A stretch of DNA of 64,000 nt from Polyangiaceae bacterium (GCA_025937895.1 JAICQL010000005.1:1-64000), one strand, 5' to 3'. Counted from the first letter of the stretch, positions 45,925-54,312 are shown. Notes: generated by a model from the letters alone, not told the origin. A program made the numbers and translations.

Positions 45925-48882
45925 TCAGATGCTGTCGCGTCGCCGTAACAGCACCAAAATCGTCGCCAAAACTACCACCAGCATGGCCCCGAGCACACCG
46001 ATGGGCAGAAAGGTCGACTCGAACGCGGTGAAGCCCCAGGCGCCGTTCAGGCTGTCGCTGGCGATCTGCGCCGGTGCGCAGTGAAACTTCCCCCCGGTAA
46101 TGAAGTTGTCCAGGCTGTTCAGCTCCGGGCGCTGCAGATCGATGATCCACGAGGGATCGTTCTGCACGGCGAGCCGCTCCTGCGCCACCAAGCCCTGAAA
46201 GCCCCAGCGCGCCGGCATCACCAGCATCGGAATTTCGAGCAGCTGGTTGGTGGTCATCGGCACCATCAGCCCGCCCAGCACGACCTGTGGGATCAGCGCG
46301 ATCGGAGTGAGCGCCATGGCCGCCTCGCTGCTCACGACGATGGTGCTGAGCAGGAGCCCGATCGCCACCGAGTTCATGCCCGTGGCGATCAGGGTGACGA
46401 GCCCGATGCCGAACGCCTCCATGCCGCCGCTGAAGCCCAGGCCGAAGAACAGGATGCTGAGCAGCACCGTGCACTGCACCACGGTGATCAGGCTCAGCAG
46501 CAGGAACTTGGAGACCACGTAGTTGAACAAGCCCAGGTTCACCATGCGCTCGCGCACATAGATGGCCCGCTCGCTCACGATCTCGCGCGCGGCGTTGCTG
46601 GTGCCAAACCACACCGCGGTGACGGCGATGAAGAAGATCGCCACCGTGTTGTCCTGGGTGGGCTGCATGCCCTTCAGCAGGCCGCTCGAGGCGCTCTCCA
46701 GCTCCCCCGAGCGTGCCGCCAGCTCCTGGATCGCGCCCAGGCACCAGTACGGGATGGCATTCTCCTGCGCGCCGAACACCAGCGCCAGCAGCCCTCCGAT
46801 CACGGGCGCCTGCAGCAGCATGATGGCCATGCCGCCCACGTCGCGCCGCTTGATCTTGAAGTAGCGGCTGAGCAGCTGCCGGAACTGCCCCTGCGTGTTG
46901 GGCCGCCGCATCGGCACGGCGGCGCTGCTGCTGCCGGCCCCGACCTGGCGCCGGCCGCTGAACATGCTCCGGAACGTGGAGTTGTTGTCGTTGAAGAACT
47001 CGGCGTGCCACTGGCGGGCCGCCGCCGCGCGCGCCTCCTGTCGGGTGGCGGCGGGGTTCTGCCGGCGCAGCTCGTCGAACAGGGGCTGCTCGCGCCGCTG
47101 CAGCATGTCGAACATGTCGCGCGGGTTGTCGACCGAGTTGGGCTTGCCCTGCCGCTCCAGCCAGCTGCCGAAGAAGCGGTAAGCGTCCGGGTGAGTGGGC
47201 CCAAAGAAGATGGGCACCCCGCCCAGGCCCATGATCAGCGCCAGGTTGAACTTCTCGAACTCGTCCTTGGCGGGCTGGTGGATGGTGGTGATGATGGTCT
47301 TGCCCGTCTGCCGCGCGAGATCTGCCAGCAAGGTGACCAGCGCGGTGGTGTCGTCCGCCGCCAGGCCGCTGGTGGGCTCGTCCAGGAACATGATCACCGG
47401 GTCGGTCACCAGCTCCATGGCGATGTTCACGCGCTTGCGCTGGCCGCCGCTCAGCACCTTCTTCTCGGGCTTGCCGATCTGCAGGTCCTTCACGTTCTCC
47501 AGGCCTAGCTGCTGGAGCGTGGTGGCCACGCGCCGCTCGATCTCCTCCTCCGAGTAGTCGGGCGGCAGCCGGAACTTGGCGCTGTAGCGCACCGCCTCCC
47601 AGACCGTCAGCTCGGGGTGCACGATGTCATCTTGAGGCACGTAGCCGATCGAGCCGCGCAGGGCGTCGTAGATGCTGTGCAGATCCTCGCCGTTGATGCG
47701 CACCTGCCCCGCCGTGGGCCGCAGGTAGCCGTTGAGGGTGAGCATCAAGGTGGTCTTGCCCGAGCCGCTCGGGCCCATCAGCGCGATGAAATCACCCGGC
47801 AGCGCCTTGAAGCTCACGTGATCGAGCAGCACCTTCTGCTGCCCGGGGCGATCGCGATCGGGCACCTCGAGCACCAGGTCCCAGGCCTCGATCTCGTACA
47901 GCGGCCGCCCCTCCCAGGACGCCGCGTCGTCGATGACGACGGCCACTTCCTGCGCCTCGGACTGGATGCGCAGCGGCATCGGTCCGATGAACACCTTCTC
48001 CCCCGGCTTGACCGCCACCCGCTGGTTTGCCGGGATGCGCTGGCCGCGCACGAAGGTGCCGTTGGCGCTGGCCTTGTCCTCGATGAACAGCCCCTCGGGC
48101 AGCTGGTGCAGCAGCGCATGCCGGCTGGACACCTGCGGGTGGGAGATCTGGATGTCGTTGTCCGCGGTTCGACCGATGGTCTTCGTCTGCGGGCCCGCGC
48201 TGCCGCCCATCGCGAACTGCCCGACGACGGTTTTGTGCCGCACCGGCGCGGCGGCGAGCTCGGGCCGCGCCTGCGTGCCCTCCAGCCGCGCTGCGCCGGG
48301 GGTGGCCGCTGCCGCGGGCATGCCCGGCAGAGCTCGCCGCAGCTCGTCCAGCAGCGCCACCGAGAAGGGCACGGGCCCGAGGCGCACGATGGCGCTTGCG
48401 GGCAGCGCGCGCGAGCCACCGCTCGGCAGGCGCTCCGAGTCGATGAACGTGCCGCTGCTCGAGCCGCGATCCGTGATGGTGAGCGGGGTGCCGGTCAGGC
48501 TGGCGTGCTGCCCCGACACGATCGGGTTCTGCACGACGATGTCGTTGCGCGCCGGATCCCGCCCGAGCCGCACTTCACCCGGGCTCTCCGCGGCTTGACC
48601 GCGGCTCAGCAGCATCAACGTGATGGCGGGGTGGGTCAGCGGCAAGGCCGCGGCCTCACCGAGGGTGAAGCTGGTGCGGAAATCGAAGGCGCGCTCCTCC
48701 TCCGCTCCGAGCGCATCACTGCCGGCGCGCGTGCTGCCGCTGGCGTTGATGAACATCAGCGCGCCATTGGCTCTGCGCTCGATGCGTGCGTGTACCGGCA
48801 GTACGCCAGGGCCGCCCAGTCGAATGTCCGAGCTCGGGCTGGAGCCGATGCTGATGCTTTGCTTACCGAAGCCTGAAATCAT
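45925..48882 (-). CDS. Triple-FHA, ABCG-type half transporter (ATPase plus permease)
   Basis: 985 aa, GAGG six bases before the ATG. Three FHA-like modules come first. The first is partial (SIGSSPSSDIRLGGPGVLPVHARI). The second, at ~100-175, has VRLGRDPARNDIVVQNPIVSGQHASL and SSGTFIDSERL. The third, at ~230-310, has TIGRTADNDIQISHPQVSSRHALLH and NGTFVRGQRI. The ABC ATPase (~345-580) has MGPSGSGKTTLM (Walker A), VLSGGQRKRVNIAMELV (signature), PVIMFLDEPTSGLAADD (Walker B) and the H-loop TTIHQP. The C-terminal ~300 residues hold about six membrane segments of the ABC2 type. FHA domains bind phosphothreonine, so transport is probably phospho-regulated. Last gene of a four-gene operon. Confidence 0.92.
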   Translation of the reverse strand: MISGFGKQSISIGSSPSSDIRLGGPGVLPVHARIERRANGALMFINASGSTRAGSDALGAEEERAFDFRTSFTLGEAAALPLTHPAITLMLLSRGQAAESPGEVRLGRDPARNDIVVQNPIVSGQHASLTGTPLTITDRGSSSGTFIDSERLPSGGSRALPASAIVRLGPVPFSVALLDELRRALPGMPAAAATPGAARLEGTQARPELAAAPVRHKTVVGQFAMGGSAGPQTKTIGRTADNDIQISHPQVSSRHALLHQLPEGLFIEDKASANGTFVRGQRIPANQRVAVKPGEKVFIGPMPLRIQSEAQEVAVVIDDAASWEGRPLYEIEAWDLVLEVPDRDRPGQQKVLLDHVSFKALPGDFIALMGPSGSGKTTLMLTLNGYLRPTAGQVRINGEDLHSIYDALRGSIGYVPQDDIVHPELTVWEAVRYSAKFRLPPDYSEEEIERRVATTLQQLGLENVKDLQIGKPEKKVLSGGQRKRVNIAMELVTDPVIMFLDEPTSGLAADDTTALVTLLADLARQTGKTIITTIHQPAKDEFEKFNLALIMGLGGVPIFFGPTHPDAYRFFGSWLERQGKPNSVDNPRDMFDMLQRREQPLFDELRRQNPAATRQEARAAAARQWHAEFFNDNNSTFRSMFSGRRQVGAGSSSAAVPMRRPNTQGQFRQLLSRYFKIKRRDVGGMAIMLLQAPVIGGLLALVFGAQENAIPYWCLGAIQELAARSGELESASSGLLKGMQPTQDNTVAIFFIAVTAVWFGTSNAAREIVSERAIYVRERMVNLGLFNYVVSKFLLLSLITVVQCTVLLSILFFGLGFSGGMEAFGIGLVTLIATGMNSVAIGLLLSTIVVSSEAAMALTPIALIPQVVLGGLMVPMTTNQLLEIPMLVMPARWGFQGLVAQERLAVQNDPSWIIDLQRPELNSLDNFITGGKFHCAPAQIASDSLNGAWGFTAFESTFLPIGVLGAMLVVVLATILVLLRRRDSI

Positions 48883-48898
48883 GGACGCCTCATCACGC

Positions 48899-51388
48899 TT
48901 ATACCGCCCCCCGGTACCGGAGCACCACCAGGGTCAGATCATCGCGCTGCTGCGTGGTCCACGCATTCAGGTCGCTCATGATGTGATCGCGGATGACGGC
49001 CACAGGGTGCTGGGCGACGCTCTCCAGCCCGTTGCACAGCCGATCGATGCCGTATTGCCCGAGCTCGCTGTTGCGCGCCTCGATCAGCCCATCGGTGTAC
49101 AGCAGCAAGATGTCCCCGGGCTCCAGCTGGCAAGAGCCCTCCTGGATGGTGTTGGGCGCGGGCTGTGCCAGGATGCCAGCCCACAGGCCCGGAGTGGGCA
49201 GCCGCTCGCACACGCCCAGCCGCGCGCGATACAGCACCAGGTCCTCGTGTGCACCCGCGAAGTCCAGGCGTCCATCCTGATGGTAGCGCAGCAAGGTCAA
49301 GGTGGCGTGCTCGTCGCGCTCCAGGCGCTTGCGCACGTTCTCGTGTAACACGGTGTTCAGCACCATCCAGGCCTGACTGGGGGTGACGTCGGGATTGACG
49401 TGGGTGGTGGCCGCCACGATGCTCTGAATCATCAGCATCACCAGCCCGGTGTGCAGCCCGTGCCCCGCCACGTCGCCGATGCCCAGCCAGCAGCCGTCCG
49501 GGCAGGGTAAGATGTCGAAGTAGTCGCCGCCCACCTCTGTGGCGGGCCGCATGCCCGTGGCTATCTCCAGGCCGGGAGCGCTGGGCTGCCGGGGCAAGAT
49601 CCCGGTCTGGATGCGCGCGGCGATCTCCAGCTCCTGCGACATGCGCGCCTGCTCTGCCCGCTGCCGGCGAGTGGCCTCCTCCACGATGGCGCCGGCCAGC
49701 TCGATCGCCTTGAGCGCCGTGCTTACCAGCTCCGGGATGGTCTGGAAGACAAAGCCGTCGCGCGCGCCCAGCTCGATCACGCAAAAGCCCAGGGGCTGCT
49801 CGTTGAAGAAGAGCGGCAGCACCATCATGCTGTGGCGCCAGTGGGGCCGCAGGTGCGAGGGCACCACGTCGCCCGTGCGAAAGGGCAGGTCGTTGCCCTC
49901 GCTGCGCAGCTCGTTCTCGTCGTCGTAGGCCAGCACCAGCTCGGAGAAATCTTCCGGCCCGGGGCTGCCGGCGTAGCGCGCCACGTACAGGCTGGAGATG
50001 CGCAACGCGGGGAGATGGATGGCCAGGGCCGTGCGCAGCGCCTCCACGTCCAGCGCCGTGCGCACCGCGACGCTCATCTCCTCCATGCTGCGCATCAGTG
50101 CGTCCTTCTCCAGACGCCGCCGGGCCTGCTCCTGCTCGGCCAGGCCGCTGATCAGGATGTGCGCGCGCTCGAACACGGTCTCCGCGCGCAGCCACGCCCG
50201 CACCGAGCCGGCGAGCGAGCTCACGCTCTCGCAGCGCAACTCCGCCACCGTGTGATGCCACGCGGCAATGTGGCTCAGGTGCGCGGCCTGGCGCACCACT
50301 CCGTCCACTGCCATTACGAACTCGCGCTCGCTGCCGCGCTGCAGGTCGCTGAGCAGCGCGTCCACCAGTCGCTCGGCATAGGCCGGGTCGATGTCATCCT
50401 CGGCGGCGGCCTGCTCCAGGGCGGGGGTGGCCCGCTTGACCGCATGGATCCAGGCCTCGCGGCGGTGGCCGAGTGAGCTCAGCAGTGACTGATCGGAGAC
50501 CACGGCCTCGAAGGCCAGCTCCGGGCTGGGCCCCGCGCAGCCGCACGACTCGCGCATCATGATGGTCGTGCCCAAGAACACGTGATCCATGTCGACGGCC
50601 CCGTTCAGCATCGCCAGCACCCGGCGCACCGCCAGGATGCCCAGCTGCCGCGGGGGCTGCCTCACTGTCGTCAGCGCCGGCGTGGCGAAGCGCGCGGCCT
50701 CGATGTCGTCAAAGCCCACCAGCCCCACGTCCTCGGGCACGCGCAGACCGCGGCTGGTCAGCGCCTCCAGCGCGCCCAGCGCCATCCAGTCGTTGCCGGC
50801 GACGATGGCATCGCAGCCGCCGCGATCGCGCGAGAGCAGCGCGGCCACCGCGCGCGCCCCGGACGGCGGCGTGAAGTCACCGGCCACCACCAGCCGTTCG
50901 TCGTAGGCCACCCCGCACTCGCGCAGCGCCTGGCGGTAGCCCTCGAAGCGCTGCTGCGCCTCGTTGTTGGGTCCGGAGATGAAGGCCACGCGCCGCCGGC
51001 CATGCTTCTCGAGCAGGTGGCGGGTGAGCTCATACACGCCCTTGGTGTTGTCCACGCTGAGCGAGGCGACGTTGGGCCGCGGCGTTCCAATCGTGCAGAT
51101 GGGCAGGGAGGCGAAGCGCCGGAACAGCACCTCGACCTCGGCGCTGTCCTCGATGGCCATGGTGCCCGGCACGAGGATCACGGCGTCCAGGTCACTCGGG
51201 GCCACCAGGTTGTAGACCAGGTTGCGGGGGTCGGGAGCGTTCGCCAGGCCACCGGCGAAGCAGTACATGTCCACGCCGTGCTCCTGGCACTCGTCGTGGG
51301 CCCCCAGCAGGATCTCGTTCTGGTAGTTGTAGTCGCCGCCCCTCAGGAAAATACCGAGCCGCGGTTTTTGTCTCAGCTGCCGCGACAT
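48899..51388 (-). CDS. LacI-type ligand-binding sensor fused to a SpoIIE/PP2C phosphatase
   Basis: 829 aa. Residues ~10-275 match the periplasmic-binding/LacI regulatory fold (RLGIFLRGGDYNYQNEILLGAHDE, SVDNTKGVYELTRHLLEKHGRRRVAFISGP, CDAIVAGNDWMALGALEAL, GLVGFDDIEAARFATPALTTVRQP) but no HTH precedes it. No signal peptide or membrane helix is seen, so sensing is cytoplasmic. Residues ~285-430 are helical; ~440-580 look GAF-like; ~590-829 are a SpoIIE PP2C phosphatase with the metal aspartates in GGDYFDIL, GIGDVAGHGL, LLYTDGLIEARN and RDDLTLVVLR. A ligand-gated Ser/Thr phosphatase fits a locus full of FHA readers. It lies 16 bp before the FHA-ABC gene. Confidence 0.9.
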   Translation of the reverse strand: MSRQLRQKPRLGIFLRGGDYNYQNEILLGAHDECQEHGVDMYCFAGGLANAPDPRNLVYNLVAPSDLDAVILVPGTMAIEDSAEVEVLFRRFASLPICTIGTPRPNVASLSVDNTKGVYELTRHLLEKHGRRRVAFISGPNNEAQQRFEGYRQALRECGVAYDERLVVAGDFTPPSGARAVAALLSRDRGGCDAIVAGNDWMALGALEALTSRGLRVPEDVGLVGFDDIEAARFATPALTTVRQPPRQLGILAVRRVLAMLNGAVDMDHVFLGTTIMMRESCGCAGPSPELAFEAVVSDQSLLSSLGHRREAWIHAVKRATPALEQAAAEDDIDPAYAERLVDALLSDLQRGSEREFVMAVDGVVRQAAHLSHIAAWHHTVAELRCESVSSLAGSVRAWLRAETVFERAHILISGLAEQEQARRRLEKDALMRSMEEMSVAVRTALDVEALRTALAIHLPALRISSLYVARYAGSPGPEDFSELVLAYDDENELRSEGNDLPFRTGDVVPSHLRPHWRHSMMVLPLFFNEQPLGFCVIELGARDGFVFQTIPELVSTALKAIELAGAIVEEATRRQRAEQARMSQELEIAARIQTGILPRQPSAPGLEIATGMRPATEVGGDYFDILPCPDGCWLGIGDVAGHGLHTGLVMLMIQSIVAATTHVNPDVTPSQAWMVLNTVLHENVRKRLERDEHATLTLLRYHQDGRLDFAGAHEDLVLYRARLGVCERLPTPGLWAGILAQPAPNTIQEGSCQLEPGDILLLYTDGLIEARNSELGQYGIDRLCNGLESVAQHPVAVIRDHIMSDLNAWTTQQRDDLTLVVLRYRGAV

Positions 51389-51489
51389 CCGCCCCGATAC
51401 GACGACCGGGTTTCCGTACTGCTTTAGCGCAGTTGCCGGTTATTGCACGCCGGCTGATGGCCGTTCAGGCGAGGTGCAGCTCGATAGGC

Positions 51490-53601
51490 TCAGTCCAGAC
51501 GGATGTTGAAGTCCACGGGACCAAAGCGCAGCTTGCCGCCGGGGCCGAGCGCCGTCCACGTGCCCGCAGGGATGCGGGAGTCATTGACGAACGTGCCGTT
51601 GTTGCTGCGCTCGTCGCGGATCCAGAGCTGACCCCCCTCCACCTTGAGCGTGGCGTGCACGCCCGAGACTCCGGGATCCGTCAGCAGCACGACGCACTTG
51701 CTGTCGTCGCGACCCGCGCGCACCTCACCCCCGGCCGGTACGGTGAACACGCCGGCCGCCCCCTGCAGGGTAGCCTGTGAGGCCGTGGGGCGGCGCGCCG
51801 GAGCGGCGCCGGGCATGGGGGCCGCGGGTTGTGCGCGGACCGGCGCCCTGCGCCCGCCGCCGCGCAGCACCACCACCACTAGCAGCGCCACCACGGTCGC
51901 AGCGAACAGCCCGCCCAGCGCCCACACCAGCGGGAAGGGTGCCGTCGTCGCCTTCAGCTCCAGGATGGTGTCTGCCGTGACGCCGCTGGTGCGCGCGGCC
52001 TTGTTGTCCACGATCACCAGGCGCGCCACCGCGCGCGAGCCAGAGCCGTGGATCAGCTTGTCAGAGTCCGGCGCCTCGAACTCCACGAAGGCATCGGCGG
52101 CCTCCACCGAGGTGCCGCGCATGCCCTGAGCCACCAGCTGCTTCTGCGCGCGGCGTGCCGACTCCAGATCCGCAGTCTTCAGATCGGCGGGCGGGGCGCT
52201 GCCGGCCGGCAAGAAGTAGACCTCGGCGCGCGACTTGTCGCCTCCCCAGCAGAAGTCGCCGAACACCTTGAAGCGACCCCCGGGGTACACGCCGTCACCC
52301 ACCTGCGCCTTGGTCTGCGCGGCGTCCACGTCCAGCGGCCAGCTCGAAGGATCGATGCCGATGGGCACGTCCTCGAAGGTGGTGTCACCCAGGATCGGCG
52401 GGTTGACGTTGTGGAAGACCAGCTTGAACGACTGCGTGATCTTGGGCGCGATGCAGCTCATCTTCCACTTCACCACGTGCATGGTGGCGAAGCGGCTGCG
52501 CACCGCGTTCACGATCTGGTCCGAGCGCTTGCCCTCGCCCTTGCGCACCACGCTGAAGAAGCCGCCAATCTGCGGATTGGCCAGGTTCTGCATGAAGTCG
52601 AAGGCGTTGTTCCGGAACTCGTCGTACGTGGAGTGCGGAAAGTAGATGCTGATGACCGGCACTGGCGTCTTGGGCAGCGCCGTGTTCTCGGGCGGGAAGC
52701 GCCCGGTGGTCATGTACCTGGAGAGCTCCAGCGCGCCGGGGCCGCTGGTGGATGGATCGGTGCCGCCGAAGCCGCTCGACAGCACCACCATGGCCTGGTG
52801 CATCGGCACGTTCACGCCGCCGACGTTGCCCAGCGCCTTGAAGGCGTCCGTGGCCGCCGTCTTGATGATGGTCAAGAGCGCCCGGTTGCGGCCCTGGCTC
52901 GGGTAGGGATCCTTGAGCGAGTCGATCAGCTTGGTGGCCTGAGACTGCTTTGCCGTGGGCAGCCACTGCGAGTCGCGCACGACCTGGCGGTCGTTGAAGA
53001 ACATCACGTTGACGATGTCATTGGGCCCCATCGCCGCGACGAAGCGCGAGGCCAAGGTGCGTGCGTCCTGAAAGCCGGCGCCCATGCGCGAGTCAGCGTC
53101 CACCAGGATCAGCCAGGCCGTACCCACCCCGGGCTCACGCCCGCTCTCGCCCCACTTGGCGTGGCTGATGTACTTGGCCGGCCGATCCATGTCGTCCACG
53201 CTGACGGCGAAGATGGCGTTCTTCGCCGGGAAGGGGAACGACTGGTACAGGGCGTTGGGGCGCTCCAGCGCCTCGCTCATGCAGCCCAGCTGCGCGTCAC
53301 CGGTGAGGCGCGCGCAATCGGCCACTGCCTCGCTGATGCGCTTGCTCTGCGAGACCTCGATCACGGTGGTGATGATCGGGTCGCCGCTGTCCAGGCTGGC
53401 GCGCGGATCCACGCGCAGCAGCTTGGCCTCGGGCGCGGCCAGCGCCGGCACCGTGCCCAGCAAGACGAGCAGCGCCGTGCACACGCCGAGCGCCCGGGAG
53501 AAGCCGGCGCGGCGCTGCGCTGCTCCAGCGAGCGGGCTCAGCGCAGCTGCGATGAGGGCGTGCAACGGCGTAGCGACGAAGTGCAGGGTCAATGAACGCA
53601 T
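51490..53601 (-). CDS. VWA-like domain, transmembrane and FHA protein
   Basis: 703 aa. An N-terminal signal (~35-58, ALGVCTALLVLLGTVPALAA) precedes a long extracytoplasmic region with a VWA-like fold (~150-370: AWLILVDADSRMGAGFQDAR, DIVNVMFFNDRQVV, QAMVVLSSGFGGTDP). The usual DxSxS metal motif is altered (DADSR). A membrane helix near 565-590 (LVWALGGLFAATVVALLVVVV) leads to a basic linker and a C-terminal FHA domain (~615-703: VRAGRDDSKCVVLLTDPGVSGVHATL, SNNGTFVNDSRIP). The FHA part is therefore cytoplasmic, making a membrane-spanning link between an outside adhesion-like domain and inside phosphothreonine reading. Confidence 0.85.
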   Translation of the reverse strand: MRSLTLHFVATPLHALIAAALSPLAGAAQRRAGFSRALGVCTALLVLLGTVPALAAPEAKLLRVDPRASLDSGDPIITTVIEVSQSKRISEAVADCARLTGDAQLGCMSEALERPNALYQSFPFPAKNAIFAVSVDDMDRPAKYISHAKWGESGREPGVGTAWLILVDADSRMGAGFQDARTLASRFVAAMGPNDIVNVMFFNDRQVVRDSQWLPTAKQSQATKLIDSLKDPYPSQGRNRALLTIIKTAATDAFKALGNVGGVNVPMHQAMVVLSSGFGGTDPSTSGPGALELSRYMTTGRFPPENTALPKTPVPVISIYFPHSTYDEFRNNAFDFMQNLANPQIGGFFSVVRKGEGKRSDQIVNAVRSRFATMHVVKWKMSCIAPKITQSFKLVFHNVNPPILGDTTFEDVPIGIDPSSWPLDVDAAQTKAQVGDGVYPGGRFKVFGDFCWGGDKSRAEVYFLPAGSAPPADLKTADLESARRAQKQLVAQGMRGTSVEAADAFVEFEAPDSDKLIHGSGSRAVARLVIVDNKAARTSGVTADTILELKATTAPFPLVWALGGLFAATVVALLVVVVLRGGGRRAPVRAQPAAPMPGAAPARRPTASQATLQGAAGVFTVPAGGEVRAGRDDSKCVVLLTDPGVSGVHATLKVEGGQLWIRDERSNNGTFVNDSRIPAGTWTALGPGGKLRFGPVDFNIRLD

Positions 53602-53625
53602 CACGCTATCCTGATGTGTGTGGTC

Positions 53626-54312
53626 TCAGCCGGGTCCGGCAGGCGCGCCCGGGATCGGGTAGTTGGACTCGATCACCTTGATCACGGTGTTGAACAGTCC
53701 AAAGCGAACACGGTCGCCGTCGCGCAGCTCCCAGCGCTGCCCTGCGGCGAGCGGGTTGTCGTTGACGAAGGTGCCGTTGGTGCTGTGGTTGTCTTCCACC
53801 ACGACCCGGCCCGGGCGGGCCAGCGCGAGCAGCACGGCGTGCAACGAGGAGGTGGTGGGGTGAGCGATCTCGATCTGAACGCTGCTGGCTGCGCCCTGAC
53901 GGCCCACGATGTTGCGCCCCTGATGGATGGGCCAGTACTGGCCGAGCTCCAGATTATCGAAGCTCACCAGAAAGCCGACCAGCACGCGCGGTGCATCGGC
54001 TGGCACCTCCAGCAGGCGCACGCCACCCACGGGCTCGTGGCTGCCCGATGGCGGACGATTGATCGGCAACCTTGCCCCCGGTGGCACCGCGGGAGGCGGA
54101 GGTAGACCTGCGCCGCCCACGGGCGGGGGCGGCAGGCCGCTAGCCACGGGCGGAAATTGGGCTGCTGCGGGCGGTGGCGCCAGCGGCGCTCGCGCCTCTC
54201 CCGAGGGCCATCCCACGGCTGGCGGCGCGCCAACCAGGGGAGCGCCACAGACCACGCAAAACCTCGCGCTGGGCTGGTTGGGCTCGCCGCACTGGTGGCA
54301 GTCACGCATCAT
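53626..54312 (-). CDS. Zinc-ribbon and FHA domain protein
   Basis: 228 aa. Residues ~4-25 form a double zinc ribbon (DCHQCGEPNQPSARFCVVCGAPL). A Pro-rich linker with repeated GLPPPP units runs to ~90. The FHA domain (~110-215) has GRNIVGRQGAASSVQIEIAHPTTSSLHAVLLAL and STNGTFVNDNPL. No catalytic motif: it is a likely phosphothreonine adaptor. First gene of the operon; 24 bp to the VWA-FHA gene. It starts ATGATG, and the second Met could also be used. Confidence 0.88.
   Translation of the reverse strand: MMRDCHQCGEPNQPSARFCVVCGAPLVGAPPAVGWPSGEARAPLAPPPAAAQFPPVASGLPPPPVGGAGLPPPPAVPPGARLPINRPPSGSHEPVGGVRLLEVPADAPRVLVGFLVSFDNLELGQYWPIHQGRNIVGRQGAASSVQIEIAHPTTSSLHAVLLALARPGRVVVEDNHSTNGTFVNDNPLAAGQRWELRDGDRVRFGLFNTVIKVIESNYPIPGAPAGPG

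Follow-up and report, generated by a model that had tools for sequence, protein, structure and literature searches.

In Mycobacterium tuberculosis, Rv1747 is a one-chain ABC exporter with FHA domains that is encoded in a Ser/Thr phospho-signaling operon with PknF, and its FHA domains are required for interaction with the kinase (PMC3908365, PMC5549992). The ArnA-ArnB system of Sulfolobus pairs a zinc finger-FHA protein with a VWA plus beta-sandwich protein (PMC6509490; PDB 5A8J, 8S05). Phosphatases that join a periplasmic-binding (LacI-type) domain to SpoIIE were described in 2010 as an expanded group in Sorangium cellulosum (PMC2887360), and the RsbU/SpoIIE-STAS-RsbW switches use SpoIIE-type enzymes with an N-terminal sensor and a helical linker (PMC11418112, PMC12143880). 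Proteins resembling these are encoded side by side in a four-gene operon at 45925-54312 of a 64,000-nt stretch from a Polyangiaceae bacterium (GCA_025937895.1 JAICQL010000005.1:1-64000; hereafter the window, from genome G000). The exporter P0001 resembles Rv1747, P0004 and P0003 recall the ArnA-ArnB pair, and P0002 shares the architecture of the Sorangium phosphatases and the sensor-linker arrangement of RsbU. The three FHA genes form an exporter module that is conserved in Polyangiaceae and apparently undescribed; no description of it was found in the open-access literature on these domain combinations.

Organization of the operon

Four open reading frames lie on the minus strand, at the positions and in the order assigned to them by the first-pass annotation of the window:

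53626..54312, minus, P0004, 228 aa: zinc ribbon, proline-rich linker and FHA (Pfam Zn_Ribbon_1, FHA)
51490..53604, minus, P0003, 704 aa: signal peptide, VWA fold, transmembrane (TM) segment and FHA
48899..51388, minus, P0002, 829 aa: LacI/Peripla_BP_3 sensor, middle region with alpha-helical linker, SpoIIE-type PPM phosphatase
45925..48882, minus, P0001, 985 aa: three FHA domains, ABC_tran and ABC2_membrane (Pfam)

The intergenic gaps are 21 bp (P0004/P0003; 24 bp, as previously given, if P0003 starts at the ATG following its GTG), 101 bp (P0003/P0002) and 16 bp (P0002/P0001). The domain composition proposed for the four proteins was confirmed, and the operon contains no Ser/Thr kinase gene, as had been noted. 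Pfam models matched all five FHA domains, SpoIIE and Peripla_BP_3; the VWA assignment had no Pfam match and is based on the fold instead. The two junctions of the P0002 gene are as follows:

51389..51489, minus, gap P0003/P0002 of 101 bp, first junction of the inserted P0002 gene (sequence)
48883..48898, minus, gap P0002/P0001 of 16 bp, from the P0002 stop codon to the P0001 ATG (sequence)

No promoter- or terminator-like site was called inside the 101-bp gap. Since only 16 bp separate the P0002 stop codon from the exporter ATG, the ribosome site of the ABC gene abuts this stop codon. Judging from the spacing, P0002 and the exporter gene probably form one transcript.

Conservation of the module and of its phosphatase slot

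With a loose cut-off, 53 of 59 relatives have homologs of P0003; full-length homologs are 42-63% identical within Polyangiaceae, and the family is present in about 36 Polyangiaceae genomes. The gene order recurs as zinc ribbon-FHA, VWA-TM-FHA, a slot, and 3xFHA-ABC; rplS adjoins it, frequently along with rplC or yidC. In named genomes, a scan gave 69 module loci, nearly all from Polyangiaceae and Labilithrix. In 51 of the 61 relative loci that could be tested, the VWA gene is immediately preceded by the zinc ribbon-FHA gene, and orthologs of P0001, 55-67% identical, keep the same place. At a strict cut-off, the ABC family extends to a further family (f6), where it occurs without PP2C or VWA.

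The slot gene in relatives encodes a canonical PP2C phosphatase (PF00481/PF13672) with a C-terminal TM segment. Among the 44 named loci with both slot neighbors on one contig, 36 carry PP2C, 8 are empty and none has SpoIIE. A wider count adds 13 loci in which PP2C follows the VWA gene and the ABC gene is cut off, together with G003, counted as empty from two contigs with an overlap of about 110 bp within the slot; it gave 49 PP2C, 9 empty slots and no LacI-SpoIIE gene among 58 classifiable relatives. The three FHA genes are co-inherited, and as a rule the gene for the membrane-anchored PP2C lies between the VWA-FHA and FHA-ABC genes.

Empty slots occur in the same-genus genome G001 and in G008, and the window groups in the tree with these two loci (L092 and L093; support 92/48 and 99/78). 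The deepest branches carry PP2C and the losses are scattered, with 4 changes of the PP2C label against a shuffled mean of 9.4. On this tree, PP2C is placed as ancestral, with repeated losses, one of them in the clade to which the window belongs. Searches elsewhere in G000, G001 and G008 gave no close PP2C ortholog; the best matches there reach 33-39% identity against a yardstick of 47% identity and E 4e-79 for an ortholog; relocation of the PP2C within the window genome was rejected for this reason. Because the slot is empty in the closest tree neighbors and PP2C has been lost there, the LacI-SpoIIE gene most simply entered a slot that was already emptied, and the arrangement is seen in this genome only.

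P0002 homologs in Polyangiaceae are never found at the FHA module, but on different contigs or far from it in all eight genomes checked. Together with its absence from the 44 complete-slot loci, this led us to reject the LacI-SpoIIE gene as a conserved fourth member. Conservation of the gene order, which had been suggested as a check for all four genes, thus holds for the three FHA genes and not for the phosphatase gene. The first-pass annotation also proposed a ligand-gated phosphatase that sets the state read by FHA domains. Of this proposal, the FHA readers (adaptor, membrane VWA protein and exporter) are retained; the LacI-SpoIIE protein as a standing part is not, since the module is mostly conserved with PP2C and lacks LacI-SpoIIE in every relative examined. 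That reading took the one non-conserved gene of the module as the center of the mechanism.

A P0003 linker motif (xFMYGxxPPxYGLTxxQP) was considered as a feature lost together with PP2C, but the association is not strict: the PP2C-bearing G019, G032 and G014 are also without it. One genome carries two VWA/FHA-ABC module copies (L117 and L153), one with PP2C and one without.

P0002 and its relatives

The P0002 protein begins directly in the sensor domain, a periplasmic-binding-protein fold without a helix-turn-helix, and no TM segment was predicted. Its two Pfam domains are:

About 50543-51358, minus, LacI/Peripla_BP_3 sensor of P0002 (PF13377, E 2e-33)
48914-49495, minus, SpoIIE domain of P0002 (PF07228, E 3.2e-36)

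The catalytic motifs GGDYFD, GDVAGHG, TDG and RDD, including the metal-binding Asp motifs, are intact. P0002 sits in the slot held by the PP2C of the family without having the membrane anchor and T-x-x-D tail of that protein, and its phosphatase domain is close in sequence to STAS-linked paralogs.

Eleven of 19 P0002 homologs adjoin STAS-like and/or HATPase-like (RsbW-like) genes (L078, three in L080, L081, L083, L085, L087, L197, L199 and L200); L078 is a 48% identical paralog in G000. This pattern of neighbors recurs, the serine motif of the STAS-like proteins is kept, and these associations point to partner switching rather than to phosphothreonine read by FHA domains. Known substrates of SpoIIE/RsbU enzymes are folded STAS proteins, recognized through three variable loops (PMC11418112), and sensor domains switch these phosphatases through a dimerizing helical linker, which is a general mechanism (PMC12143880). 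STAS and HATPase models gave no match in the window, in the next 20 kb or in L086. A STAS and RsbW-like HATPase pair without a SpoIIE phosphatase beside it is encoded elsewhere in the genome (L202:5711-6582, G000:C305), and it is a candidate partner in trans for an orphan LacI-SpoIIE protein.

In G019, a ligand-sensing partner switch has expanded locally into three tandem HATPase/STAS/LacI-SpoIIE operons (L080:4436-14900). The same LacI sensor is fused to histidine-kinase-like outputs at L079:5717-11513 and L088:4072-8116, beside response-regulator-like proteins; therefore, one sensor is common to different output types.

T-x-x-D motifs in the PP2C tails and the search for a kinase

The pattern pT-x-x-D is a known FHA target, among the pT+3 motifs (PMC5549992). 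T..D occurs 77 times in the PP2C tails, against 24.4 ± 4.6 expected, a number reached in none of 500 shuffles, although the tail sequences are related and the shuffles overstate the significance; after removal of similar tails, 60 were observed against 18.7 ± 4.0. The narrower T[VILM][VILMF]D was found 21 times, with 1.1 expected. In the same tails, T.D, T...D, D..T and S..D, which served as control spacings, showed no excess, and this spacing specificity is still informative. Given the excess and its specificity, the PP2C tails look like FHA docking sites and are candidates for this role. No T-x-x-D was found in 15 P0003 linkers. With these tails, the module found across the family resembles a phosphothreonine writer/reader/eraser circuit around an exporter.

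G000 has 142 kinase-domain matches and 54 FHA matches, and the nearest kinase on the window contig is about 6 kb past the window. A nearby Hanks-type kinase, which had been suggested as something to look for in relatives, is not generally present: 592 kb of flanks contained 13 kinases, with about 10 expected, and a conserved neighboring kinase was rejected as a rule. The few exceptions are L126/L050, where two kinase genes lie within the module and a third immediately upstream, L144, with a downstream kinase gene, and L155/L157, with a divergent kinase gene. Kinases and phosphatases are seldom co-organized in myxobacteria (PMC2887360).

The FHA proteins and the exporter

The domains of P0004, P0003 and P0001 were located as follows:

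About 54235-54300, minus, zinc ribbon of P0004, C-x2-C ... C-x2-C (Pfam Zn_Ribbon_1)
53698-53910, minus, FHA of P0004 (Pfam)
About 52477-53148, minus, VWA fold of P0003 (AlphaFold2 and PDB comparison)
About 51850-51945, minus, TM segment of P0003, residues 554-585 (prediction)
51520-51720, minus, FHA of P0003 (Pfam, E 1.5e-13)
48751-48855, minus, FHA1 of P0001, degenerate
48376-48573, minus, FHA2 of P0001, Asn to Ser
47983-48180, minus, FHA3 of P0001, canonical
About 47368-47826, minus, ABCG-type nucleotide-binding domain of P0001 (Pfam ABC_tran)
About 46183-46887, minus, ABC-2 membrane domain of P0001 (Pfam ABC2_membrane)

P0004 is predicted to be a cytoplasmic adaptor. For the VWA region of P0003, a Pfam search gave no match; Pfam alone was set aside as a means of deciding on this domain, and the question was settled by the fold. 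The AlphaFold2 model of the extracytoplasmic region (pLDDT 86, 25 sequences) matched VWA/I-domains with a Foldseek probability of 1.00 and Z scores of 17-18.5 (best Z 18.5 over 181 residues; approximately residues 153-376), and the Foldseek matches include ArnB and its paralog vWA2. The signal peptide and the single TM segment ahead of the FHA domain place the VWA domain probably in the periplasm and the FHA domain in the cytoplasm. The metal ion-dependent adhesion site (MIDAS) is degenerate (DADSR), and its position 3 is Ser in 4 of 12 aligned homologs. One branch of VWA-TM-FHA proteins (L050:10766-13222, L059:5360-7906 and L063:4913-7795) has an extra zinc-ribbon-like CPxC...CFSCG in the linker between the TM segment and the FHA domain.

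P0001 carries its FHA domains N-terminal to the nucleotide-binding and ABC-2 membrane domains on a single chain. The nearest NCBIfam family is the ABCG-type pigment permease family, and in the PDB it is closest to CDR1 and ABCG proteins. The three FHA-like modules ascribed to it are all Pfam FHA domains; their sites are canonical in FHA3, variant in FHA2 and degenerate in FHA1. The R/S/H/N/G site of FHA3 is invariant in 13 of 13 orthologs, as is T218 just ahead of this domain. The Asn of FHA2 is replaced by Ser or Ala in all 13, and FHA1 of the window protein no longer has Arg, Ser and Asn, the Arg being missing in all 13. P0004 and P0003 keep all of the phosphate-binding R/S/H/N/G residues; hence, the phosphothreonine-binding site named in the first-pass annotation is conserved in three of the five domains and altered in FHA1 and FHA2.

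Possible function of the guest phosphatase

In our interpretation, the locus is an exporter module gated by FHA domains, in which LacI-SpoIIE is a guest phosphatase whose substrate is more likely a STAS protein; we judge the chances of this reading to be about even. Hanks kinases encoded elsewhere would phosphorylate threonines, for which the T-x-x-D-rich PP2C tails are the best candidates. The FHA domains of the adaptor, the VWA protein and the exporter may then dock at phosphothreonine and gate the exporter, with PP2C serving as the platform for docking and also as the eraser. In the window lineage, PP2C would have been lost, and the LacI-SpoIIE gene would later have settled in the empty slot in G000. 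A sugar- or nucleoside-like ligand at the LacI domain could alter the dimeric helical linker, and this change would switch the removal of phosphate from a STAS protein whose gene lies elsewhere, such as that of the C305 pair. The operon would thus couple exporter production to a STAS circuit, rather than erasing FHA ligands.

A STAS protein is the likelier substrate because P0002 has neither membrane anchor nor tail and because its relatives are accompanied by STAS/RsbW-like genes. Several points weigh against it. The STAS-like and HATPase-like neighbors fall below the Pfam curated cut-offs (STAS_2 2e-4, HATPase_c_2 0.02), and the closest P0002 homolog (L195, 50%) and several others are orphans without STAS neighbors. 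It is also a notable coincidence that a Ser/Thr phosphatase occupies the exact slot of a lost Ser/Thr phosphatase, when roughly a dozen such genes, a tiny share, were detected in the 8.6-Mb genome. This coincidence favors a non-orthologous replacement, in which LacI-SpoIIE took over the job of the lost PP2C and a ligand controls the erasure of FHA-read phosphothreonine. The gene lies on the same strand in the exact ancestral slot, 16 bp from the exporter start codon, its active site is intact, and the window clade is without a close ortholog of the lost PP2C. However, a protein with no TM segment and no T-x-x-D tail cannot replace the docking role, its catalytic domain resembles those of STAS-linked paralogs, and nine relatives retain the FHA module with an empty slot, while the arrangement occurs in a single genome. 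Replacement is therefore ranked below the STAS substrate, as a tentative possibility. It is rather doubtful that a ligand-gated SpoIIE-type phosphatase from the STAS world displaced PP2C as the eraser of a phosphothreonine circuit that is read by FHA domains and controls an exporter.

The gene might also have been inserted by chance into a permissive gap, functionally unlinked to the exporter module. Unrelated genes do occur inside the module elsewhere (L039 has one resembling a histidine kinase and one resembling an oxidoreductase; L050 has two kinases and a transporter-like gene), and the arrangement was seen once; nevertheless, the same-strand insertion and the 16-bp gap tie exporter expression to the P0002 gene, and we regard chance co-location as improbable. 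Mis-joining of the gene into the contig could be suspected in an assembly of 425 contigs with 7.7% estimated contamination. However, both P0002 junctions are intergenic, all flanking reading frames are intact, base composition is even across the operon region, and the searched genomes contain no LacI-SpoIIE homolog above 50% identity to P0002; such a chimera is very unlikely.

Myxobacteria are rich in Hanks kinases, and few of their circuits have been assigned. The module may represent a family-wide phosphothreonine system in these bacteria. A single operon combines the readers and an exporter as output with a candidate ligand, namely the T-x-x-D tail of the membrane PP2C, and such bundling makes the wiring from kinase to output testable. 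The carriers of the module are soil and water myxobacteria of one family, among them the culturable Minicystis rosea DSM 24000 and Polyangium fumosum DSM 14668. The window variant, in which PP2C is gone and a ligand-sensing phosphatase is present instead, offers a natural test of a shift of SpoIIE-type enzymes to non-STAS substrates. If true, displacement of PP2C by a SpoIIE-type enzyme would be a swap between two phospho-signaling worlds that are usually thought separate.

Neighboring genes

A lipoprotein-like ORF, P0005 (45228-45872, minus), follows the ABC gene on the same strand at 52 bp downstream; it was rejected as a fifth operon member, since no homolog was found in 20 relative loci. 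On the other side, rplC (ribosomal protein L3; 54958-56055, plus) is solitary and divergent from the module, beside rplS and then a methyltransferase-like gene. It is the sole L3 match found in G000, and the same holds for G001 and G021. As the sole match stands outside, rplC seems to have departed from the S10 operon in this lineage.

Comparison with known systems

In contrast to the phosphatase genes of the RsbU/RsbW switches, that of P0002 has neither a STAS nor an RsbW-like companion within the window or the 20 kb that follow. A term search of PMC2887360 gave no description of a Sorangium phosphatase inside an FHA/ABC operon. Rv1747 has two FHA domains, whereas P0001 has three, one of them degenerate. 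P0001 is partnered by a zinc ribbon-FHA adaptor and a VWA-TM-FHA protein, to which relatives normally add a PP2C, and a kinase is usually not adjacent; a cognate kinase gene of the Rv1747 kind was not found beside the exporter. At least one intact FHA site (FHA3) is present. Unlike ArnB, P0003 probably holds its VWA domain in the periplasm, followed by a TM segment and an FHA domain of its own, and its MIDAS is degenerate. The archaeal pair controls archaellum expression, whereas the genes described here adjoin an exporter.

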